Below are positions 4,229 through 46,140 of a DNA stretch of 58,361 nucleotides, piece after piece. The first letter of the stretch is position 1. Each line of letters starts with the position of its first letter. The stretch comes from a virus. A program made the translations under genes and the position numbers. Location: positions 1 through 58,361 of IMG/VR virus record IMGVR_UViG_3300005340_000042. One strand, 5' to 3'. The notes below the pieces were generated by a model. The model was given only the letters and a program-made list of their open reading frames with translations, had not been told where the DNA came from and did no database searches.

Positions 4229-4666
4229 TCAGCGCCGCCCGGCACGTCGGTAGCGCATCCCCTCCTGTGCGGCGACCTCCCGCAGCGCGGTGGTCAGGAA
4301 CGGGCGGCCAGGGCGAGCCGGCTGGTGGACCACGCGGGTGTAGACCGTCCGGCCGCCGACCGTGAACTTGAGCTTCGGCCCGCCCGGCCGGCTGCGGATG
4401 GTCAGGGCGCGCCGGCCGTTGTGCACCGCGGCGGCGTATTCGGCGGTGTACTTCACCACGCCCGTGACCGTGCTCCCTGCCGACCTGACATCGCTCTGCC
4501 GGGACGCGCGTAGCAGCCCGGTGTCGACCGGCACCAGCGCCGCGCTGCGGTTGTCGGTCTTGCGGGTGGCCCGGGCCACGATCTTCCTGGCCGCAGCCAT
4601 GCCGGTTGCGTGCATGCGCGCCTGCGCGAGGTGAACTGCCACGACTTCAGCGTACGGGGTTGACAC
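4229..4666 (-). CDS. HK97 gp10-like tail completion / head-tail connector protein (145 aa)
   Basis: The pattern VPVDTGLLRAS (about 45-55), YAAAVHNGRRA (about 77-87) and RPFLTTALRE (about 120-129) is the signature of HK97-gp10/tail completion proteins that cap the tail end at the head. The C-terminus is basic. GTG 4666 is used; an in-frame GTG at 4645 is an alternative. The 5' end overlaps the plus-strand promoter at 4660-4688, so divergent transcription reads across its start. It lies upstream of the tail chaperones in the late order. Confidence 0.8.
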   Translation of the reverse strand: MSTPYAEVVAVHLAQARMHATGMAAARKIVARATRKTDNRSAALVPVDTGLLRASRQSDVRSAGSTVTGVVKYTAEYAAAVHNGRRALTIRSRPGGPKLKFTVGGRTVYTRVVHQPARPGRPFLTTALREVAAQEGMRYRRAGRR

Positions 4667-4688
4667 CTATCGGGCATGGCTGTAATGT
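4660..4688 (+). promoter_or_regulatory. Promoter of the GCATG family driving the 4.7-5.3 kb RNA
   Basis: Consensus -35 TTGACA (4660-4665), 17-nt spacer ending GGCATGGCTG, and -10 TAATGT (4683-4688). The start point would fall at about 4694, exactly on the ATG of a 30-codon ORF. The spacer matches the other copies of this promoter family (see 9679, 21360, 30562, 45337). Confidence 0.75.
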
Positions 4689-4693
4689 TCTCC

Positions 4694-4786
4694 ATGTCAG
4701 CAGCGGCCGGAGCTACTGACAGCGGCACTGCCGCCACCAATCCGGAAGTGACCGCCGAGCTTGCAGCAACCCACCAGCATCGCTAG
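4694..4786 (+). CDS. Leaderless 30-aa ORF heading the structured RNA
   Basis: ATG 4694 lies 6 nt after the -10 hexamer, so the transcript would start at or next to this codon. The 30-residue product is Ala/Thr-rich and hydrophilic with no recognised domain and stops with TAG at 4784. The structured region begins immediately after. It could be a leader peptide controlling the RNA or a chance ORF in its 5' part. Confidence 0.4.
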   Translation: MSAAAGATDSGTAATNPEVTAELAATHQHR

Positions 4787-5310
4787 TGGAACTGGGTAGC
4801 GGGTCGCGATGGAACATCGGGGGTGCACACCCGATCCTGACAGCCGGAAAGTTACGGCCCTGGCTCCGAGAAGTCCTCGTGGGAACTCGGCAGGTTGCAA
4901 GCACGAGGGGTGCCGACCTAGTGCGTCACGTAGATCCGGTTCGCCGGGAAGGACGCACAGGGGTTGCCGGTTCGATCCGGGCGGTGCGCGATTCGGAGAA
5001 GCCGGAGGCCCTGGATGGGGATAGGGCGGACCCGAATTTGGTTCGGGACAGCGCGTAGGCGCAGCCGGGGCGGAGGGGAATAGAGCGCCCTGTTGATGAC
5101 CGGAGCAGGCCTGCTCGGCCTGGTGGTGCAACTCCACTCCCGAATACGCAGCAACCGAGAGGCTGGAACACGTCGTCACTCGGGCCGGGCGGATAGGAAA
5201 CGAGCGTCGCCGGCACGCAGCAGCACAACCGAATACCGCACCTGAGCAGGCTGAACATTTCGTCAGTGCAGGTGCCAACAGGGGCTTGCGCGCAGGAAAG
5301 CGCTTGCCCC
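4787..5310 (+). ncRNA. Large, highly structured non-coding RNA candidate (about 520-620 nt)
   Basis: About 520 bp without a credible gene, downstream of a consensus promoter and dense in stable helices: ATCGGG/CCCGAT (4816-4835); a possible H-type pseudoknot from CCGAG/CTCGG (4866-4870/4886-4890) and CCTCGTG/CACGAGG (4875-4881/4902-4908); GTGCGTC/GACGCAC (4921-4927/4952-4958) capped by CCGG-TTCG-CCGG; AGGGCG/CGCCCT (5023-5028/5086-5091) enclosing CCCGAA/TTCGGG and GCGC-GTAG-GCGC; GAGCA/TGCTC (5103-5116); two repeated hairpins with the same loop (5155-5183, 5238-5275); and a final GGGGC..GCCCC hairpin (5281-5310). Size and complexity recall the phage-borne GOLLD and ROOL RNAs, but membership is not shown. 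The function is unknown. Confidence 0.65.
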
Positions 5311-5332
5311 TAAAAGATCTTGTCCAAATCCC

Positions 5333-5362: not shown

Positions 5363-5398
5363 TGTTCTCACAAGGGCGAGGGAATGAGGGAGACGGAC

Positions 5399-5665
5399 AT
5401 GAACTGCGAACTGACGATCATCGAGAACGTGACCTACGTCAAGATCGCTGACGACACTGCGACCGGCACCGACGGCAGCACCTGGTTTCGGCACGCACAC
5501 GCTCCCCTGATCGAAACGGTGCGCATCGCACAGGCTCGGATGGATGCGGCTGTCGCGGCCGGCCTGACCGGGCTGGACAACGCCACGGCCTACATGGAGG
5601 CGCTGGAAGTCCGGAACGCCGCCGAGGAGGACATCGAGATCCTGACCACGCTCTGGACGTACTGA
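5399..5665 (+). CDS. Hypothetical protein (88 aa), plus-strand island
   Basis: Not recognised. A short beta-rich N-terminus (NCELTIIENVTYVKI) is followed by two amphipathic helices and an acidic end (EEDIEILTTLW). ATG 5399 is preferred because GGGAG lies 6 nt upstream; an in-frame ATG at 5384 would add five residues but has poorer spacing. The gene is bracketed by its own promoter and an intrinsic terminator, so it is an autonomous unit inside the opposing late region. Confidence 0.72.
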   Translation: MNCELTIIENVTYVKIADDTATGTDGSTWFRHAHAPLIETVRIAQARMDAAVAAGLTGLDNATAYMEALEVRNAAEEDIEILTTLWTY

Positions 5666-5765: not shown

Positions 5766-6026
5766 ATGCACTACAACATCCAGATCCACATCCAGCAGGT
5801 CCAGGAGCCGGAGCCGATCAACGACCCGGTACGCGGCCGGAGTCCGAGCCACACCGAGCGCAAAGTGACCTCGATCCTCGAACTCAAGGTCACCGCGGAC
5901 ACGGAGCCGGCCGCGTACGAGCGGGCGCTCAGGGTGCTGAGCATGAACGCACCCGAACCCCAGTCTCGGTACATGGCGACACGGGAAGAGGAGGCCGAGC
6001 AGAAGCTCCGGCACCTCGGACTCTAG
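5766..6026 (+). CDS. Hypothetical protein (86 aa), plus-strand island
   Basis: Not recognised. A beta strand (HYNIQIHIQQVQ) starts the protein, a polar loop follows, then a second strand (SILELKVTADTE) and a C-terminal helix (REEEAEQKLRHL). ATG 5766 has GAGAGG about 8 nt upstream. A weak promoter-like TGTAACGTT lies at 5736-5744. The gene ends before the strong hairpin at 6076-6112. Confidence 0.72.
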   Translation: MHYNIQIHIQQVQEPEPINDPVRGRSPSHTERKVTSILELKVTADTEPAAYERALRVLSMNAPEPQSRYMATREEEAEQKLRHLGL

Positions 6027-6075
6027 CCCTTGTGATCTTGGTCGATGGCCTACTAGCGTCGGTCGAATAGTTCGC

Positions 6076-6112
6076 GCAGCGCCCCCGCTGGTTCGATCCC
6101 CGGGGGCGCTGC
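6076..6112. terminator. Bidirectional terminator hairpin between convergent genes
   Basis: GCAGCGCCCCC (6076-6086) pairs with GGGGGCGCTGC (6102-6112). It separates the plus-strand 86-aa gene from the minus-strand connector gene ending at 6118. The loop contains a T-arm-like GGTTCGATCC, probably coincidental. Confidence 0.75.
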
Positions 6113-6117
6113 TGCTG

Positions 6118-6666
6118 TCATGATGTCGGACCGGCCTCAGCGCAGTCGCAGGCAGGTCCGCGAACGGTCACGGTCATCACACCCCCGGCGCATCCACCGG
6201 ACAAGTCCAGCGGCAGCCAGGGGCCCGGCAGCATGGACTTGATCCGGCCGCGCCCCTCCGGCAGCTCACCGAAGCAGCAGAGCGCTCGGCGCATCGCGGC
6301 GGCATCGTCCATCACGGCCTGCGTGACGGTGTCCCACTGATCGGCGGTCGGGATCTTCTGCGCCGGCGGCGTGGGCGCGCACCTGATCGCGCCGATCTCC
6401 AGCGTCACCGCCCACGCCTGCACGCCTTTCGGTGTGGGCACGTCGTCCTGCGCCGGGAACGCACTCGAACTGGGGAAGAACGTGACCGGCCGCACCCACG
6501 CCAGGCCGGAGCAGCACTCGTCCTCAGTCTCGCTGATCAGGTGGTCCACGACCGCGCCCGTGCGCAGCTGCACGTACTTCGGTGGCGAGTCCAGCTTCGC
6601 GACCTCCTGCTCAAGGCAGGCCAGCAGCTCACGCGCCACGGGCATCACCAGGGGGTCAGTTGCCAT
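6118..6666 (-). CDS. Head-tail connector / neck protein (182 aa)
   Basis: Probable head-closure or tail-terminator protein. ATG 6666 overlaps the upstream connector stop (TGATG). The N-terminus is helical (VARELLACLEQEVAK), followed by a beta-rich, Cys-containing body with CCSGLAWVRPVTFFPSS and AWAVTLEIGAIRC, and a DACDC-like Cys cluster near the C-terminus. Position after the adaptor and before the gp10-like protein supports a neck role. The exact family was not identified. Confidence 0.65.
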   Translation of the reverse strand: MATDPLVMPVARELLACLEQEVAKLDSPPKYVQLRTGAVVDHLISETEDECCSGLAWVRPVTFFPSSSAFPAQDDVPTPKGVQAWAVTLEIGAIRCAPTPPAQKIPTADQWDTVTQAVMDDAAAMRRALCCFGELPEGRGRIKSMLPGPWLPLDLSGGCAGGVMTVTVRGPACDCAEAGPTS

Positions 6667-8093
6667 CAGGCACCCCAAACGGTCTGGCGGTCGCAGGACT
6701 CCGGCAGGTCCGGCGAGAGGATCATGAACGGGGACTGGCGCCGGCCAGGGTTGAGCGTCGCGATCACGTCGTCCACCTGGCGCACGCCCGTGGTGCCGGT
6801 CGCGCCGTCCCCGGCGTCGACCTCGATCTCCACCCCCTGGCGCGACAGGCGGGTCATCCTGGCCGGGAGCGCACACGCCCCGCCGTCCAGGTGCTTCGCG
6901 TACTCACAGGCCAGCAGGGCGACCGCCACCTGCAACGCGATCGGCAGCGCCACACCGACGCCGTAGGTGACCTGGAAGTCATCCGGCTCGGCGCCGCAGC
7001 TCGGCCAGCACGGACCATCCGTGCGGACCAACAGGTAGGCGCCCTTGCTCAGATCGACCCGGTAAGCGCTTTCCTCCACCACCTCGCCCGCGACCACGAC
7101 CGAGGTCACCGAAGCGACCGGGCCGCGCAGCACGATCGCACACCCGCCGGAGTTGCAGCACGACCCGCATCCGCGATTGAACCAGCGACCCCCGAACAGA
7201 TACGGGCCGCTGACCGCCGGGTCCTGGCCAGGCCAGACGGGATAGTCCCGGTAGATCTCCGGCGAGAGCATGTTCTGCCGGGGCTGGATGGTCACCTCGC
7301 AGATGCCGAAGCGCCGGCCGGTCGCCGCCCAGAGGAACTGGCTCGCGAGCTGCAACGCGGCTGCGCGGGTGCCGTACGGGCGCGCCGCCCAGTCATCGCA
7401 GACACCCAGCTCGGCCGGGTCCACGTTCCAGCCGCAGACACCTGAGTCGATCGGGGTCTCCGAAGCGCCCGCGCTGGCCAGCGTCAGGTCCAGCGTGAAG
7501 GTGGCACTGCCCTGGCCGCCCGGAGTCTCGCCCGTGGCCGAGAGCACGATCTGCAGCGGGAAGTCAGCAGCGCCCTCTGCGCTCGGGACGGGCACCTCGA
7601 ACACCATGTCAGCGAAGTAGGCGCCGCCCTGGAAGGTGCCGTTGGGCACGCTGAGCGGGTCGCCACCGAACCGGCCGTTGGGGGTCGTCTCGGTGGCCGG
7701 CGCCGTGATCGGCCCGCTCGTGATGGCGTTGCCGGTGAACAGCCCAGCAGTGGCCACGTAGCGGTCGGGCGTACCGACCCACGCGATGACCCGGCGCGGG
7801 CCGGCGATGATCACGGGGCCCTCGATGCCCACACCGTCCAGCGGCTCCTGCACCCAGGCGCCGGCCACGGGCGCGGCGAACGTGTGCTCGGCCAGGGCTT
7901 CGGAGTTCGTCAGGTCGTACAGGTGCCAGGTCACCTGGCCGGACGGCAGCGTGGCCGGGAATCGCCAGCGCGCGTGCGTGACCATGCCGGTGACACCGGC
8001 CTCGATGTCGATCACCGTGCCGTACGAGCCGTCATTATCGGTCACGTCAGGGGAGGTCGGCGCGGTGTTGCCGAAGATCGTGTAGGCGGTCAT
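6666..8093 (-). CDS. Fusion of a DUF4082-like domain and a head-tail adaptor (475 aa)
   Basis: Residues about 1-175 resemble the DUF4082 beta-sandwich found in secreted actinobacterial carbohydrate-active proteins (TIFGNTAPTSPDVTDNDG, VTGMVTHARWRFP, TWHLYDL, and GGAYFADMVFEV at the end). Residues about 205-475 look like an actinophage head-tail adaptor: Cys-rich, with CDDWAARPYGTRAA and RPRQNM-like segments and LLACEYAKHLDG. The fusion would display the N-terminal domain at the neck. Start ATG 8093 has CGGGAG upstream, and the stop overlaps the next gene. The adaptor call rests on position and general resemblance; the domain boundary is approximate. Confidence 0.65.
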   Translation of the reverse strand: MTAYTIFGNTAPTSPDVTDNDGSYGTVIDIEAGVTGMVTHARWRFPATLPSGQVTWHLYDLTNSEALAEHTFAAPVAGAWVQEPLDGVGIEGPVIIAGPRRVIAWVGTPDRYVATAGLFTGNAITSGPITAPATETTPNGRFGGDPLSVPNGTFQGGAYFADMVFEVPVPSAEGAADFPLQIVLSATGETPGGQGSATFTLDLTLASAGASETPIDSGVCGWNVDPAELGVCDDWAARPYGTRAAALQLASQFLWAATGRRFGICEVTIQPRQNMLSPEIYRDYPVWPGQDPAVSGPYLFGGRWFNRGCGSCCNSGGCAIVLRGPVASVTSVVVAGEVVEESAYRVDLSKGAYLLVRTDGPCWPSCGAEPDDFQVTYGVGVALPIALQVAVALLACEYAKHLDGGACALPARMTRLSRQGVEIEVDAGDGATGTTGVRQVDDVIATLNPGRRQSPFMILSPDLPESCDRQTVWGA

Positions 8094-10311: not shown

Positions 10312-11004
10312 TCAGCTCGAAAGACCCTGCGTCCCGCAGACCGCTTCCGGCGGAGCCAGCTGCGTCCAGATCGGCAGGTGGTGGGTGTCGGTGTCGATCG
10401 GCGTGAACAGCGGCGCCGGCAGGTCGTTCACGTCCCGCACCACGTCGTACGGGCCGATCCCCCACGGGGTGCCGGTCCGCGTCCGCGCAACCACCGTGAA
10501 GGTGATCGCGGCGTTGGTGATGGCGATGTCCTCCATGAGGGCACCCTCCACCAGCCACGGCAGGAGGTTGTAGCCGAAGAACGGGTAGGGGTCGCCGGGG
10601 AGGCAGGCCTCCTCGGCGTTGCCCATCCAGGCCTCCAGGGCGAAGTTCGCGGTGGCGAACCGGCTCTTGGTGACCGGGAACCCGATCGTGCGACCCTGGT
10701 CGTCCAGGTACGGCGCCAGGCCCGTGATGATCGTGAACAGCTCCGGGTCCACCTCCTGGAACACCATGGTCACGGTGTACCAGCGCAGGTCCGGAAGGCC
10801 CCGCTCGTCGATCATCGCGCGACCGGCGGCGTTGCGGACGAAGAACGACTCGCCCTCCTCGACCTCCGGGGTCATGGTGATCGAGATGAAGCCGTCCGAG
10901 ACGCCGTACGCGTCATCGCCGTACTCCGGGTTGCCGCACTCGTCCAGCCGCGTGACGCGCATCGTCTCGCCCTGAAGCGGCTTGGCGCACACCAGATTTG
11001 CCAT
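10312..11004 (-). CDS. Major tail (tube) protein (230 aa)
   Basis: Likely tail tube subunit. ATG 11004 overlaps the upstream stop (TAATG). The N-terminus (MRVTRLDECGNPEYG) with a following ISITMTPEVEEGE strand pair, a DPELFTIITG segment and an alternating beta pattern match the general layout of actinophage major tail proteins. It sits upstream of the connector genes, unlike the usual connector-before-tube order, so the call relies on sequence flavour more than position. Confidence 0.62.
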   Translation of the reverse strand: MANLVCAKPLQGETMRVTRLDECGNPEYGDDAYGVSDGFISITMTPEVEEGESFFVRNAAGRAMIDERGLPDLRWYTVTMVFQEVDPELFTIITGLAPYLDDQGRTIGFPVTKSRFATANFALEAWMGNAEEACLPGDPYPFFGYNLLPWLVEGALMEDIAITNAAITFTVVARTRTGTPWGIGPYDVVRDVNDLPAPLFTPIDTDTHHLPIWTQLAPPEAVCGTQGLSS

Positions 11005-11822
11005 TAGGGACTCACCACTTCCAGGGGATCGTAGGTAGCGCGGCCGGCGAAGCAGTCGAACGACACGGCGTAGGGCCGCTCGGCCACGATGAGTTCCAGG
11101 TTGGTGATGCGGTCGAACGCGGTGGCCATGTCGACACCGACGCCACGCCACACCGTGGTCTGGCCGGTGACGATGATCTCGCCGGCCGGGTAGGCGCCGA
11201 ACGCCCAGACCGAACCGAGCGGGGTGATCTTGCGCGTGCTGCCCTGCTCGGCCAGGACGAGCCCCGCCTCCGTGGCGAACGCCGCCACCTCGATCGGGGC
11301 GTGGATGTAGGCCACTCCGCCGTACTGCTGCTCGGTGTAGGCGTAGCGCTCCAGCGCGCCCACGACCTCGGTGATCAGGCCGTCCTCGTACCCCGAAGGG
11401 ATCGGAACCGCCGTCTCGTCCAGGTTGCGGATTCCGAGGTCGTTGCCCTCGAAATCCAGCCCCGACCAAAGCGCCGTCTCGACCGCCGCCATCTCGCCGG
11501 ATTCCAGGCGCCGCAGCGCCTTGTTCTCCAGCTCTGCCTGGCCGTAGCCGACCAGCGTGCACTCCATCGTGCCGAGCACCGCGAAGACACCCGACTCGAT
11601 CTCTTCGTCATCGCCATCGATCGGCTTGGCCGGTGCCGCGCCGGGGGCGTAGCAGTCGATGCCGAGCGCGCGCACGCTGCCGCACCCGTTGGGCACGTAG
11701 CGGACGCCGCCGCCCTGGCCGTGGGTCGGCAGGTCCAGCGGGCCGATCGCCGCATCGAACAGGCCGTAACGCCGCCGGAGTGGTTCCGGTGCCGGGACCT
11801 GCATTCCGGGAATGATCGCCAT
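11004..11822 (-). CDS. Virion structural protein of unknown role (272 aa)
   Basis: Encoded directly downstream of the major capsid gene. It starts MAIIPGMQVPAP and is beta-rich with an internal helical stretch (YGQAELENKALRRLESGEM) and AYIHAPIEVAAFATEAGL. Such neighbours of actinophage capsid genes are virion components, but whether this is a minor capsid, cement or other protein cannot be told. A large two-tier hairpin (11836-11913) separates it from the capsid gene. Confidence 0.62.
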   Translation of the reverse strand: MAIIPGMQVPAPEPLRRRYGLFDAAIGPLDLPTHGQGGGVRYVPNGCGSVRALGIDCYAPGAAPAKPIDGDDEEIESGVFAVLGTMECTLVGYGQAELENKALRRLESGEMAAVETALWSGLDFEGNDLGIRNLDETAVPIPSGYEDGLITEVVGALERYAYTEQQYGGVAYIHAPIEVAAFATEAGLVLAEQGSTRKITPLGSVWAFGAYPAGEIIVTGQTTVWRGVGVDMATAFDRITNLELIVAERPYAVSFDCFAGRATYDPLEVVSP

Positions 11823-11913: not shown

Positions 11914-13611
11914 TTAGGCCGGCTGACCGGTGACACCGGCGACCGGGATCGGGGTGGTGTAGTACCGCGACTCGGCGCACATCTTCATGATGTTGAAGCC
12001 GTCCTCGGCGAAGAGGGCGGTGTACTGGTTCTGGGTGAGCATCGCGTTGTCGTAGACGGTGTCCAGCTGGACCACGTCACGGACGGGCTTCAGCCAGGTC
12101 CCGGCCGGGTAGATGATGAACTCCACGTTGGCCGGGAAGGTCAGGATCGGGGTCGCCGCACCCGGGCCGCCCGCGGTGCCGGAGAACGCGTCCTGGTAGT
12201 CGTACACGAAGTGCGGGACGACGTTGCGGATCCGGAACCAGGACAGGATCTCCGCGTCCGTGACGGCCAGCTCGGAGACGCCCGCCCGACGCGCCATCGC
12301 GGCACGGATCGGAGCCATCGCCCAGATCGGCAGGATGATCTCCAGCGTCTGGGTCGGCGCCATGCGGTGCCGGTAGCGCAGGTCCACGGCGGCCAGCTCG
12401 ACGGCCGAGAGCACCTGCGAGGCGCCGTCGGAGTTGTTCGCCGGGATGGCGATGGTGCCGCCGTTGGTGGACTGCGCCCGGATCCGCTGGATGACGGAGG
12501 CGTTGACCTTGTGGTCCAGGCCGATGAGCGCGTTCTGGGTGAACTGGTCGATCGCCTCCGGGTAGCCGCGCCGCTGCAGCAGGGCGCCGGTGAGGCAGAG
12601 GTAGGCGACGTCCATGCGGACCTCGACGAAGTCCGGGCACGGGATCTCGACGCAGACCTTGTCCACGCCGTTGATCACGTCGTACTCGGTGAGGATCACG
12701 TCCCCGTTGTCGCCGATCTCGTCGTACACCTCGGCGAACGAGATGCCGCCGTTCTCCGGGATGAAGAAACCACCGCGGGAGGCCTGGACCTCGGGCACGT
12801 CCAGGATGCCCTCACGGGTGGCCAGGGTGCACAGGTCGTAGATCGTCTCGCTCGGGGCGCACCAGCCGGCCGCGGCGGTCAGCGCGACGCCCTTGTTGAC
12901 CTGGTTCTCCATGGCGTTGAACAGGGAGCCGCCGGGCAGGCGGGACTGCTGGCGTGCGTACTCCAGCACCTCCATGGCCTTGTTGGCGTCGGTGATGCGC
13001 AGCTGGGAGTCGTACTCGCGGCGCACGTTGACCGCGCCGTGGCGGGTCAGCGACCGGCCGCCCATCTTGAACCGGGTGCCCTTGCCGCCGATCGGCGCCT
13101 TGTTCCCGGCCTTGCCGGTGCCGCCACCGTACGACGCCAGGCGCCGCTCGATGATCTGCGCGGCGTCCGCGAACGAGGCGATCTCCTGGCCAGCATTCGG
13201 CACGTCGGAGGAAGCGGTGAGGACGGCGCGCCGCGGGGTCTCGACCTCGGGCGGGAGTTCCAGGGTGCTGCGCGCGGCGGTCACGGCCTGCGGCGCCGGA
13301 ACGGGCTCGGGGGTCGGCTCGGGCTGGGGGACCGGAGTCGGCTCGGGCTGCGGGGCCGGGTCGGGGTGCACCGCGAAAGCGGCGTTCAGCTCGGCGCGTG
13401 CGGCCTGCGCGGCAGCGGCCTCTTCGTTGCGTCGGGTGCCCTCGGCGTGCGCGGCGGCGAACACGTTGCGGACCTCGATCAGGTGCGCGGCGGTCGTGCT
13501 CTCGTCCGCGGCGGCGCTCTGCGCGTAGGCCTCGACGGCGGTGCGGTAGGTGGCGAACTCTTCGGCGCTGAGAGCACCGAGGTCGGCCGGCACCTCGAAC
13601 GGGAACGGCAT
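11914..13611 (-). CDS. Major capsid protein with N-terminal scaffold-like region (565 aa)
   Basis: HK97-type shell protein. Residues about 1-85 are Ala/Glu-rich and helical, about 86-115 form a Pro/Glu/Gln linker, and the shell domain runs from about 140 (EIASFADAAQIIERRL) to the end, with RGGFFIPENGGI, YRHRMAPTQTLEIILP and FIIYPAGTWLKP segments seen in actinophage capsids. The leading part probably acts as a fused scaffold removed by the protease encoded upstream. ATG 13611 has GGGAG upstream. It is preceded by a terminator (13749) and followed by a two-tier hairpin. Confidence 0.88.
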   Translation of the reverse strand: MPFPFEVPADLGALSAEEFATYRTAVEAYAQSAAADESTTAAHLIEVRNVFAAAHAEGTRRNEEAAAAQAARAELNAAFAVHPDPAPQPEPTPVPQPEPTPEPVPAPQAVTAARSTLELPPEVETPRRAVLTASSDVPNAGQEIASFADAAQIIERRLASYGGGTGKAGNKAPIGGKGTRFKMGGRSLTRHGAVNVRREYDSQLRITDANKAMEVLEYARQQSRLPGGSLFNAMENQVNKGVALTAAAGWCAPSETIYDLCTLATREGILDVPEVQASRGGFFIPENGGISFAEVYDEIGDNGDVILTEYDVINGVDKVCVEIPCPDFVEVRMDVAYLCLTGALLQRRGYPEAIDQFTQNALIGLDHKVNASVIQRIRAQSTNGGTIAIPANNSDGASQVLSAVELAAVDLRYRHRMAPTQTLEIILPIWAMAPIRAAMARRAGVSELAVTDAEILSWFRIRNVVPHFVYDYQDAFSGTAGGPGAATPILTFPANVEFIIYPAGTWLKPVRDVVQLDTVYDNAMLTQNQYTALFAEDGFNIMKMCAESRYYTTPIPVAGVTGQPA

Positions 13612-17466: not shown

Positions 17467-17543
17467 GAGATCACCACGTACAGCACGCACATGATCAGCC
17501 ACGCCGCACCGGCCAGGTAGGGGCCCACCCAGTGATCGCTCAT
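17463..17543 (-). CDS. Micro membrane protein (26 aa)
   Basis: ATG 17543 overlaps the portal stop (ATGA). A few polar residues (MSDHW) precede one transmembrane segment (LAGAAWLIMCVLYVVIS). First of the microprotein trio, it is translationally coupled to the portal. Confidence 0.58.
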   Translation of the reverse strand: MSDHWVGPYLAGAAWLIMCVLYVVIS

Positions 17544-19435
17544 GCGCTCACCAAGCCCCGGCCGCGATTGGCAATTTCCAAAGCGGCGAACAGCAGGTCA
17601 TCGTGGTGGCGCATGCCGCGGGTCAGCAGCTCGGTGACGTACCCCGAGAGCAGCTGCTCCAGCCGATCGGCCGGCACGCCGAAGTCCGTGGCGGTCGCCT
17701 CGATGTGCGCCCACGACCCACGGGTCACCGTCTCCGCCCGGCTCGGGCTGATCGGCCCGATCTGCGCGTGCAGTTCGTGGCGCGGGATGTCGCGCCACTT
17801 CCCGGCGCGCTCGGCGGGAGTGGCCAGGCGACCGCCCGCCAACTCCAGCGCGCGCAGCACGTGCAGTCGGCACGAGGTGTTGAACACCACCTGCGGCGCG
17901 GGCGGTGCCGCCTGCAACTCGGCGATGCGCCGATCGAGAATCGAGGCGGTCAGCGCCGGCGCGGTGCCGCCGTTGGGCGGGGAGTCGAGCACCCGCTCAT
18001 CGGGATCGTCCTGCGGGTCGCCGTCGATGTTCTGCTCGGCGGTCGGCGGCAGGCCGGCGCTCTCGACCTGAGGCAGCCCCAGCGCCGCCTGCACGGCAGG
18101 ATCCAGGATCAGGTCGGGCTGCGCCTGGATCAGCTTCAGCAGGATCTGCTGCGCCCGCTCCTTCACAGTAGGCATGACCTCGACAGGGAACGCCGCAGCC
18201 TTGACCATCTCCTTATCCGAGATCAGGAAACGGTCGTGCAGCTGCGCCGCCTCCTCGATGCGGTTGGGGCGGGCGGCCAGGGGGGACGTGTCGAACGCGA
18301 ACGCGTACCGGCCGATATCCGCCTCGCGGCCCATCGCCTTGAGCGCCAGTGCCAGGAAGCCACGGGTCAGCGCATCAGCGATCAGCGTCAGATACCCACC
18401 GATCCAGCGGGTTCCCTCATCGGAGATCAGCCACGCCGTCCAGTGGTTCGAGTTGCCGATACCCTCCAAGACCTCTTTCGGGATCTCGGCGGTGGTACCG
18501 AGCCGGCCGATGGCCTTGTCCTTCATGTCGCCGATCTGATCGCTCAGCTCGGACCAGAACGTGATCGGGCGGATCTTGTCCACGTCCGCCATCAGCTGAT
18601 CCGGGACCGAGAACACGATCGGAACCATGGCCGATGCGCTGGACTGGTCGATCATCGAGGCGGACATGGCCCGTTGCATGTAGGCCATGAAGCCGTCCAG
18701 GCCTGCGGCATCCTCGGGCTTGCGTGGGAAGTCCATCGACTCGGGCACGGGCATGATGCCGGCGCCGGTCAGCCGCGAGTCCAGCTCGGCGAACTCGCGC
18801 TTGGTCAGCAGCTCGATCTCCCGCAGTACCGGGATGGCGGAGCGGGTGAACGAGTCGGCCTGGTCGGTGTCGTTGGGGTGCGGCCGATGGCAGCGGATCA
18901 TCACGTCCACGCCGTCGGTCAGCTCCAGCCACCCGTCCCCGCGGTGCTTCGGGCGGCGCACCTTGACCTTGCCGCCCTCGTTCTTGAGCGCCGCGCCGGT
19001 GACCACGAACCACGCACCAGATGCCTCGTGCGCCCGCTGAGCGGCCCCCTCGCCGATGATCCAGCACTCGCCGGGTACCGCTAGGTCCAGACCCGCCAAA
19101 CGGAGGTTGTCGTCCCTCTGAGCGCCTTTTCCGAGTGGAACGGCGGCGAGCTGACGGATCACCTCGTCCTGAGTCTCGCCCGTCTCCTCGCCGGTCTCGT
19201 CCACCTCGGTCACGTACAGGCGCGCCTTGGCCACCGAGTCACCGATGCGCCCGGCCAGGAAGTGCAGCTCCGGCACGATGTCGTAGAGGCGCCAGGCCTC
19301 GACCTGCCAGTCCCGGTTGCCGAATTTGTACGTCTTCCAGCTGGAACCCACCGACAGATCGACCATCGCAGTCGCCGCCGTCAGCGCCGTACGGCTGAGG
19401 TCCCCGGTCTCGGCTTTCGGCCGGCGAAGCGCCAC
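17540..19435 (-). CDS. Portal protein (631 aa)
   Basis: Dodecameric DNA gate at the capsid vertex. Typical actinophage portal features are visible: NRDWQVEAWRLYDIVPELHF near residue 40, a beta-rich clip and wing region, SLTRSAIPVLREIELL-like helices at about 215-230, PIVFSVPDQLMADVDKI (about 275-291) and DSPLAARPNRIEEA-like positions near 385. The C-terminal 130 residues form a helical extension (barrel-like) with RELHAQIG-type segments. Size is at the large end of the usual 400-630. Confidence 0.85.
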   Translation of the reverse strand: MALRRPKAETGDLSRTALTAATAMVDLSVGSSWKTYKFGNRDWQVEAWRLYDIVPELHFLAGRIGDSVAKARLYVTEVDETGEETGETQDEVIRQLAAVPLGKGAQRDDNLRLAGLDLAVPGECWIIGEGAAQRAHEASGAWFVVTGAALKNEGGKVKVRRPKHRGDGWLELTDGVDVMIRCHRPHPNDTDQADSFTRSAIPVLREIELLTKREFAELDSRLTGAGIMPVPESMDFPRKPEDAAGLDGFMAYMQRAMSASMIDQSSASAMVPIVFSVPDQLMADVDKIRPITFWSELSDQIGDMKDKAIGRLGTTAEIPKEVLEGIGNSNHWTAWLISDEGTRWIGGYLTLIADALTRGFLALALKAMGREADIGRYAFAFDTSPLAARPNRIEEAAQLHDRFLISDKEMVKAAAFPVEVMPTVKERAQQILLKLIQAQPDLILDPAVQAALGLPQVESAGLPPTAEQNIDGDPQDDPDERVLDSPPNGGTAPALTASILDRRIAELQAAPPAPQVVFNTSCRLHVLRALELAGGRLATPAERAGKWRDIPRHELHAQIGPISPSRAETVTRGSWAHIEATATDFGVPADRLEQLLSGYVTELLTRGMRHHDDLLFAALEIANRGRGLVSA

Positions 19436-32154: not shown

Positions 32155-32551
32155 GCGGTTCTCTCTTCCTGCGGTTCTGATGATTCAACTGGGTGGTGCC
32201 GTAGGTGCCCGTCTCTCCGGGCTGTCACGGCCTCTGCCTTCCGTCCTCGGCGTACCAGTTTCCACGCGCCTGGTAGGGGATCGGCCATCGTGCACCGAGT
32301 GCTGCGACCTACGCGACTTGTTCCCGTACGTGGGGAGGCGAGGAGTCGAACCTCGCAAGTGCAGGGGGTGACACCCCTTGCGTCAGCGTCTACCTTTCCG
32401 CCACTCCCCCTGGTGCTACCCGAGCCGACCTCACTTCCGGGGTTGAGTCCGGTGAGCAACGGCTCGGGCAACCTGGCCACTATGCCAGGCTCGTCCGGTT
32501 CTACGTTTTCAGAGAGGGTAGTACCGGCAACCCCGCCCTCTGACCAGAACT
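32155..32551 (-). other. Structured intergenic region with tRNA-like element and hairpins
   Basis: About 400 bp without a gene. Hairpins include GCCGT/ACGGC enclosing GCCC/GGGC (32199-32231), a tRNA-like unit (32331-32409), CCCGAGCCG/CGGCTCGGG (about 32419-32468) enclosing CTCAC/GTGAG, CCTGGC/GCCAGG (about 32471-32488) and CAGAGaGGG/CCCTCTG (about 32510-32542). It is the leader of the SSB-like gene on the minus strand. Possibly a cluster of degenerate tRNAs or a regulatory leader. Confidence 0.5.
32331..32409 (-). tRNA. tRNA-like element, Leu-like body with an abnormal anticodon arm
   Basis: Minus strand: acceptor GGGGAG/CTCCCC, D arm GCG-GAAAGGTAGA-CGC as in tRNA-Leu, T arm CGAGG-TTCGACT-CCTCG, no encoded CCA. 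The best anticodon stem is TGACG/TGTCA with loop CAAGGGG, which lacks U33; an alternative hairpin GGGG-TGTCA-CCCC competes with it. Acceptor plus T stem pair as 6+6 rather than 7+5. Probably a degenerate or mimic tRNA rather than a standard one. Confidence 0.45.
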
Positions 32552-45336: not shown

Positions 45337-45365
45337 TTGCAACTTCCCTAGCATGACTGTAAGGT
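45337..45365 (+). promoter_or_regulatory. Promoter of the GCATG family
   Basis: TTGCAA (45337-45342), 17-nt spacer CTTCCCTAGCATGACTG, TAAGGT (45360-45365). An 80-nt leader precedes the gene at 45445. Confidence 0.8.
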
Positions 45366-45444
45366 TGAGGTCAGATCCGCAGAGGCAGGAACATGTCGTC
45401 ACGGGATTGAATCCACAACCTCATGTTGAGCAGGGAGAATGCAT

Positions 45445-45684
45445 ATGGCTTTCCCGGCGCGCAACGGCGCGACCTCCACCCGATACCACTTCCCGCAGCT
45501 CGGCGAGAGCGGCCTGTGCGGAAAGCTGATCAAGCCGAGCAAGGGCGGGAGCCAGAAGTCCTGCGGCCAGGGCAGGGACGGCGACCGTCACCTGTACTAC
45601 CGGTGCCGCAAGCTACGTAGCTGTGAGTTCCAGTCCTGGTCCATCGAACAGCGCCTAGACCACGAAAGCGAGGCTCACCGATGA
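45445..45684 (+). CDS. Small zinc-ribbon-like protein (79 aa)
   Basis: AFPARNGATSTRYHFPQLGE, GLCGK ... SCGQGRDGDRHLYYRCRKLR and a SCEFQSW end: four Cys spaced as a zinc ribbon. ATG 45445 has GGGAG 7 nt upstream. The stop overlaps the next start. Confidence 0.65.
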   Translation: MAFPARNGATSTRYHFPQLGESGLCGKLIKPSKGGSQKSCGQGRDGDRHLYYRCRKLRSCEFQSWSIEQRLDHESEAHR

Positions 45685-46047: not shown

Positions 46048-46137
46048 GATCCCGTAGCTCAACAGGTGAGAGCACCGCTGGGTTTCTGAGGGGATTTCCC
46101 CGGCGGAGGTACGCAGGTTCGAGACCTGCCGGGATCA
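46048..46137 (+). tRNA. tRNA-like element with an expanded anticodon arm
   Basis: Perfect acceptor GATCCCG/CGGGATC (46048-46054/46130-46136), D arm GCTC-AACAGGTGA-GAGC, T arm GCAGG-TTCGAGA-CCTGC, discriminator A, no encoded CCA. In place of a normal anticodon arm there is an 8-bp stem CCGCTGGG/CCCGGCGG with a 16-nt loop; the loop side can also fold GGGG-ATTT-CCCC. Total 90 nt. Not a standard tRNA as it stands; could be intron-bearing, degenerate or a tRNA mimic. Confidence 0.55.
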
Positions 46138-46140
46138 CCC

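Follow-up and report, generated by a model that had tools for sequence, protein, structure and literature searches.

A predicted modular structured RNA, very probably new, in an accessory cassette of phiAsp2-like actinophages

The window analyzed here is a stretch of viral DNA of 58,361 nt, and positions 4694-5311 of it very probably encode a new structured noncoding RNA. Comparison with related phages identified it, at the level of sequence, as a predicted stand-alone RNA from an accessory cassette that is headed by a promoter and lies between two late genes, and as a predicted mosaic of swappable folded modules (5' block, pseudoknot core, middle block and two R hairpins). The best explanation overall is that this modular structured RNA may act in trans as a tRNA-type decoy, to which a probability of about 0.4 was assigned.

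Genomic setting

The window is a tailed phage genome, and its structural genes are read from the minus strand:
4229-4666, minus strand, neck/tail-completion protein
6666-8093, minus strand, head-tail adaptor
10312-11562, minus strand, major tail protein
11914-13611, minus strand, major head protein
17540-19435, minus strand, portal

The nearest cultured relative was Actinoplanes phage phiAsp2 (head protein 61% over 77%); the window phage is a phiAsp2-like actinophage, that is to say a soil virus infecting actinobacteria. Nothing pointed to a prophage lifestyle, as a family search of the window phage and nine relatives returned no tyrosine integrase. For comparison, more than 100 loci were gathered by scanning with two queries, the head protein and an alignment of neck proteins, and the neck-protein scan of bacterial genomes gave three distant loci.

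The RNA gene is encoded on the plus strand and is flanked by the neck gene (4229-4666) and a late gene (6118-6876), both on the opposite strand. The RNA would thus be transcribed against the late operon, being a plus-strand gene amid minus-strand late genes. Among closer relatives the gap beside the neck gene ranged from 4 to 1728 nt, and it was 90 nt in phiAsp2, which has no such cassette. The site serves as a hot spot for accessory cassettes in general, as L013, L014, L015 and L016 carry other genes there (apparent secreted proteins and an HTH-like protein). Downstream of the RNA, two small accessory ORFs were seen on the plus strand (5384-5665 and 5766-6026), neither with a Pfam or PHROGs match; a relative of the first is seemingly present in L017. 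Where the next late gene ends, a short promoter (TTGTGA...) is followed immediately by a GC-rich hairpin (6031-6113, plus strand). This element was present at homologous sites in most relatives, including phages that lack a cassette, and might be a very small antisense RNA or a terminator working in both directions.

Convergent transcription, or the structure itself, might instead insulate or tune the late operon in cis. The cassette does run counter to the late genes, and phages without one retain the short promoter and hairpin; however, the site holds unrelated accessory genes or is empty (4-nt gap in L091 and L094), and the conservation of structure far exceeds what a promoter needs, so that a cis-acting role appears improbable.

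Promoter, gene limits and coding status

4660-4688, plus strand, promoter: -35 TTGACA (4660-4665), 17-nt spacer, -10 TAATGT (4683-4688), start at about 4694
4694-5311, plus strand, noncoding RNA gene of ~615 nt, from promoter to terminal hairpin, with no conserved frame
5280-5311, plus strand, terminal GC hairpin, a candidate terminator or 3'-end protector, also in L002 and L017

A consensus promoter had been proposed in a first-pass annotation made from the letters alone. The proposal was sustained: the -35 box is perfect, the -10 box fits only the loose actinobacterial TANNNT, and the promoter recurs in relatives. It was not listed by a strict sigma-70 scan, because the -10 has just three of the six consensus bases. 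It also stands at the head of cassettes at the corresponding site in L055, L056, L070, L075, L079, L084, L090, L097 and L100, and seven further promoters of similar type occur elsewhere in the window. The family reads TTG..A-N17-18-TAANGT with TG immediately before the -10 (plus strand 4660, 5333, 9679, 21360, 44997 and 45337; minus strand 25691 and 30591), and several members drive small plus-strand accessory genes within the minus-strand late region.

Transcription is predicted to start right at the ATG (4694) of a 30-codon ORF, as the annotation had remarked. Its view that the span holds no credible gene was also upheld, since all tested ORFs of at least 60 aa hit stops or frame-changing indels in L002/L017, and the 30-codon ORF loses its stop in L002 and is shifted out of frame in L001. 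When the homologues were checked for coding capacity, no reading frame was conserved. The RNA gene is homologous to that of L002 along its full length, except for one swapped block.

The terminal GC hairpin was confirmed as unusually stable (z -3.87, -22.1 kcal/mol) and has no U-tract. The description of the span as packed with helices did not hold up beyond chance, with z = 0.18 for the whole RNA and -0.6 to +1.4 for the modules vs. shuffles. As folding energy was no better than that of shuffled sequence, helix packing alone is no evidence, and folding-energy tests are uninformative in such GC-rich DNA. The support for the RNA is comparative, not energetic. That there is no RNA here, only intergenic sequence or an unrecognized coding gene, would agree with the folding energies and with the several mechanical ORFs, but is contradicted by the frame breaks and by the covariation described below, and is almost certainly wrong.

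Covariation in the pseudoknot core

4839-4990, plus strand, core (module P): GAAAGU hairpin, H-type pseudoknot, 5-bp acceptor-like stem (4910-4914/4983-4987), UUCG hairpin and T-arm-like hairpin
4859-4861/4892-4894, plus strand, S0 helix just outside the pseudoknot, CCT/AGG
4866-4908, plus strand, H-type pseudoknot: S1 CCGAG 4866-4870/CTCGG 4886-4890, S2 CCTCGTG 4875-4881/CACGAGG 4902-4908
4921-4958, plus strand, UUCG-capped stem: P2 4921-4927/4952-4958, P3 4936-4939/4944-4947
4966-4982, plus strand, T-arm-like hairpin GCCGG-TTCGATC-CGGGC, one mismatch

Homologues of the core were found in six other phages (L002, L017, L001, L057, L058 and L084), giving seven sequences with the window. Covariation was counted for the stated structure on an unedited MAFFT alignment, with 500 shuffles and with partners slid by 1-3 columns as controls. 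In total, 93.3% of cells were paired and 16 pairs were changed on both sides (24 cells). None of the 500 shuffles reached 16 double-changed pairs, and the slid-partner controls gave at most 4, with 51% of cells paired. Covariation beyond both controls, together with the lack of a conserved frame, identifies a structured noncoding RNA gene.

For counts helix by helix, both strands were read from each sequence. S1 was paired in 35/35 cells with four pair positions double-changed (CCGAG/CTCGG, CTCGG/CCGAG, CCGGA/UCCGG, CCAGG/CCUGG), and S2 in 48/49 cells with five (CCUCGUG/CACGAGG, CCUAGCG/CGCUAGG, UCUCACG/CGUGAGG, UCCACCG/CGGUGGA and others). S0 changes from CCU/AGG to CCC/GGG in relatives. The pseudoknot first suggested at 4866-4908 was therefore exact to the base, with many compensatory changes in S1 and S2, and its two interleaved helices, each with compensatory change, place it in the H-type class. 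Significant covariation had been named in advance as the finding that would support the RNA, and it is strong in the core, centered on this pseudoknot.

Other proposed elements fared less evenly. In the UUCG-capped stem the cap helix covaries (the P3 closing pair is G-C, C-G or U-G in relatives), whereas the outer helix varies by G-U only, in the four closest sequences. The stems of a second suggested pseudoknot (5179-5214) were unchanged in the homologues L002 and L017, and the proposal gained no support. A multibranch junction closed by AGGGCG/CGCCCT (5023-5091) was likewise not supported: the minimum-energy fold pairs GGCCCU and GGGGCG otherwise, comparative support was lacking, and the block is confined to the window phage and to contig L003, which is identical.

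When 50 related phage records were searched with a covariance model built on the core, the seven sequences were recovered and nothing else matched convincingly. When viral contigs were scanned for the core pattern, it was found in phages of this clade only, the remaining matches being without the structure, and it was absent from the genome contigs scanned.

Absence from known families

Rfam gave no family for the RNA at gathering threshold and nothing above chance at E up to 10. Searches by blastn returned nothing for the RNA locus against annotated phages and plasmids, and nothing for the L057 cassette against phages; the open-access literature searched described neither this RNA nor arrays of anticodon-less tRNA-like RNAs. 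The first-pass annotation had offered two readings, an actinophage RNA of the GOLLD or ROOL kind, or a new class. The former was not borne out, as neither Rfam model matched even at E = 10 and the locus, length (~615 nt) and modularity differ; the latter, a new class of large, structured RNA in actinophages, is supported by covariation across seven homologues and by the absence of an Rfam match.

An oligomeric particle like those of GOLLD and ROOL, in which a compact monomer of modules would assemble through its loops, could be proposed from the size and the pseudoknots, from the position of GOLLD and ROOL, which often lie near phage tRNA islands (PMC12286853), and from palindromic loops (UGAUCA, UGUACA) in tRNA-like RNAs of sister phages that could kiss. 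Against it stand the lack of similarity to either model and free module exchange, which is hard to square with a precise cage, and no such palindromic loop was noticed in the window RNA. Such assembly seems to us hardly probable.

Mosaic build of exchangeable modules

4695-4838, plus strand, module A (5' block): hairpins TGTCAG 4695-4700/CTGACA 4716-4721 and GCGGC 4722-4726/GCCGC 4730-4734
4991-5147, plus strand, module C (middle block): ends ATTCGG 4991-4996/CCGAAT 5140-5145, with a degenerate T-arm GTGG-TGCAACT-CCAC at 5123-5137
5155-5183, plus strand, R hairpin 1: cap AGGCTGGAACACGTCGTCA 5160-5178 on stem CCGAG/CTCGG
5239-5274, plus strand, R hairpin 2: cap AGGCTGAACATTTCGTCA 5248-5265 on stem CACCTGaGC/GTgCAGGTG

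In L001 the second hairpin of module A changes from GCGGC-ACT-GCCGC to CCGGG-ACT-CCCGG, which amounts to two compensatory pairs and shifts the frame of the 30-codon ORF; in L017 the whole 5' block is replaced by a different one. L002 is 90% identical to the window across the region, yet there 4991-5147 is swapped for an unrelated module B, which carries a canonical T-arm; L001 and L017 have module B too, and L056 and L070 a more distant version of it.

The R cap reads AGGC(U/A)G(G)A-C-A-YGUCGUCA (18-19 nt) and is conserved on unrelated stems. Three copies were found in L001 and two in L057, and it also occurs in L017; the loop closure of R hairpin 2 is GAA/UUC vs. GAA/GUC in relatives. R hairpins were undetected in L058 and L084, both of which have the core. 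A further copy stands at window 45383-45401, directly downstream of the promoter at 45337 and upstream of an ORF at 45445, and L002 has it at the corresponding position. Within window 45337-45684 (plus strand) this cap, AGGCAGGAACATGTCGTCA, belongs to the 5' leader of a small gene. A tRNA-like RNA (46048-46139) lies ~650 bp downstream, so that once more an R hairpin is accompanied by a tRNA-like RNA. Exact R-cap matches in viral contigs outside the clade were coding coincidences, one pattern matching a single gene family repeatedly, and the weak R2 matches in G014, G043, G049 and G050, where inspected, likewise seem to be chance matches in coding sequence.

The main rival to the decoy takes the repeated R hairpins as a sponge, which would titrate a protein or short RNA that binds the leader of the mRNA near 45366, the rest serving as scaffold. 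A cap conserved on unrelated stems, repeated two or three times per RNA and found again after a promoter and before ORF 45445 in the window and L002, fits this; but the L058 and L084 cores stand without detected R hairpins, and the mRNA-leader copy occurs in just two closely related phages. We regard the sponge as unlikely.

tRNA-like RNAs at the same site

Sister phages have tRNA-like RNAs where the window phage has its cassette. Perfect T-arms numbered 18 sense and 0 antisense in 38 kb of sister-phage cassettes, vs. 20 on both strands together in the remaining 1.18 Mb. Several cassette tRNA-like RNAs exceed the Rfam tRNA threshold, and tRNAs were called (tRNA model/ARAGORN) for units in the sister cassettes L055, L057, L075 and L079. 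tRNA-like RNAs of the type described next were seen in L211-L219, L055, L057, L074, L075, L079, L090 and L095.

The anticodon arm was tested (5-bp stem, 7-nt loop, U33, purine at 37) in 20 clade RNAs and in T4 tRNAs as controls. Only 1/20 clade RNAs had a canonical arm, against 6/8 T4 controls, the other two of which, genuine tRNAs, appear to have failed because the script misplaced the D arm; the 19/20 abnormal arms are not all independent, as they were drawn from related phages. Acceptor, D and T arms were intact in nearly all 20, and the anticodon arms were shortened, enlarged or branched. Both tRNA calls in the window, 46048-46139 (plus strand) and 32330-32410 (minus strand), have an abnormal anticodon arm. 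When examples were folded, 4/5 gave a cloverleaf with a branched structure replacing the anticodon arm, and L100 did not in its minimum-energy fold. The MAFFT alignment of the branched RNAs had too many gaps for pairs to be counted and was set aside. Terminal loops of the branched arms were NUGNNCA or similar (L100, L055, L095, L090, L074), with palindromes UGAUCA (three), UGUACA and CGCG; they may represent an anticodon-like loop that has C37, or else a site for dimerization by kissing loops. These anticodon-deviant RNAs possibly outweigh the window RNA in importance.

A decaying phage tRNA cluster, once of ordinary tRNAs, could have left such modules as remnants kept for processing or by drift, and tRNA-like units with abnormal anticodon arms are what it would leave. 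Yet only the anticodon arm deviates while the acceptor, D and T arms persist, a pattern unlike random decay, and the core pseudoknot covaries strongly; decay is quite unlikely.

The window RNA itself is tRNA-like only weakly, through its 5-bp acceptor-like stem, the mismatched T-arm and the degenerate T-arm at 5123-5137. The T-arm-like hairpin at 4966-4982 is kept in L001, L002, L017 and L057 and is missing from L058. Neither Rfam nor ARAGORN called a tRNA or tmRNA within 4694-5311.

Proposed function

In the decoy reading, the host polymerase would transcribe the RNA from the sigma-A-like promoter, and the RNA would act in trans. The tRNA-like parts may bind host factors that read the tRNA acceptor or elbow, such as anti-phage tRNA nucleases or tRNA-processing enzymes, and would compete with real tRNAs without being decoded. 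Such a decoy would show a tRNA body to host enzymes while offering no decodable or cleavable anticodon. The R hairpins may have another binding partner, in common with the phage mRNA whose start lies near 45366.

The idea is plausible because phages are known to evade tRNA-cutting defenses with tRNAs of their own (PMC10264068, PMC11555353). The pattern of intact arms and abnormal anticodon fits a decoy that has retained the elbow but dropped the loop where cleavage would occur. The weak tRNA-likeness of the window RNA, the absence of an Rfam tRNA match inside it and the missing T-arm of L058 count against the decoy. A specifically tRNA-directed function is put forward tentatively. A wider reading, in which the clade evolved a repertoire of tRNA-body decoys with no usable anticodon and with swappable modules at one accessory site, the window RNA being a composite example, is doubtful.

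Significance

An RNA family with no Rfam counterpart joins the small set of large phage RNAs, by covariation and not by folding energy, and suggests that large phage RNAs can evolve through module exchange. If the decoy holds, RNA mimics join the phage counter-defenses, and there is a testable reason why phages keep tRNA-like genes that are unable to decode; if the repertoire also holds, it would represent RNA-based counter-defenses against tRNA-cutting immunity.

Comparison with known systems

Sponge RNAs are of the CsrB/RsmY type, in which CsrB titrates CsrA. The R hairpins resemble them in that a hairpin cap is repeated within one RNA and present in an mRNA leader, but the cap does not follow the CsrA GGA motif pattern and has 2-3 copies only.

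The T4 species 1 and 2 stable RNAs (rnaC and rnaD) are likewise phage RNAs beside tRNA genes, by annotation, but are small (139 and 119 nt) and lie within a genuine tRNA operon whose tRNAs mostly have ordinary anticodon arms. We know of no function for either.

GOLLD is similarly a large structured noncoding phage RNA associated with tRNA-type genes (PMC12286853), but it often exceeds 800 nt against ~615 nt here, and the window RNA has interchangeable modules and belongs to another phage clade and locus. ROOL, known to form cage-like multimers, shares large size, pseudoknots and a position near tRNA islands (PMC12286853), but its Rfam model does not match the window RNA. The parallel to both is loose and comes from the cassette site, which holds tRNA-like RNAs in sister phages.

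Comparable in the proposed role are defense-evading phage tRNAs, whose anticodon loop departs from that of the host (PMC10264068, PMC11555353). Those tRNAs decode and carry point changes, whereas the clade RNAs depart across the entire anticodon arm, which is variously shortened, swollen or branched; the window RNA, for its part, is larger and a mosaic.
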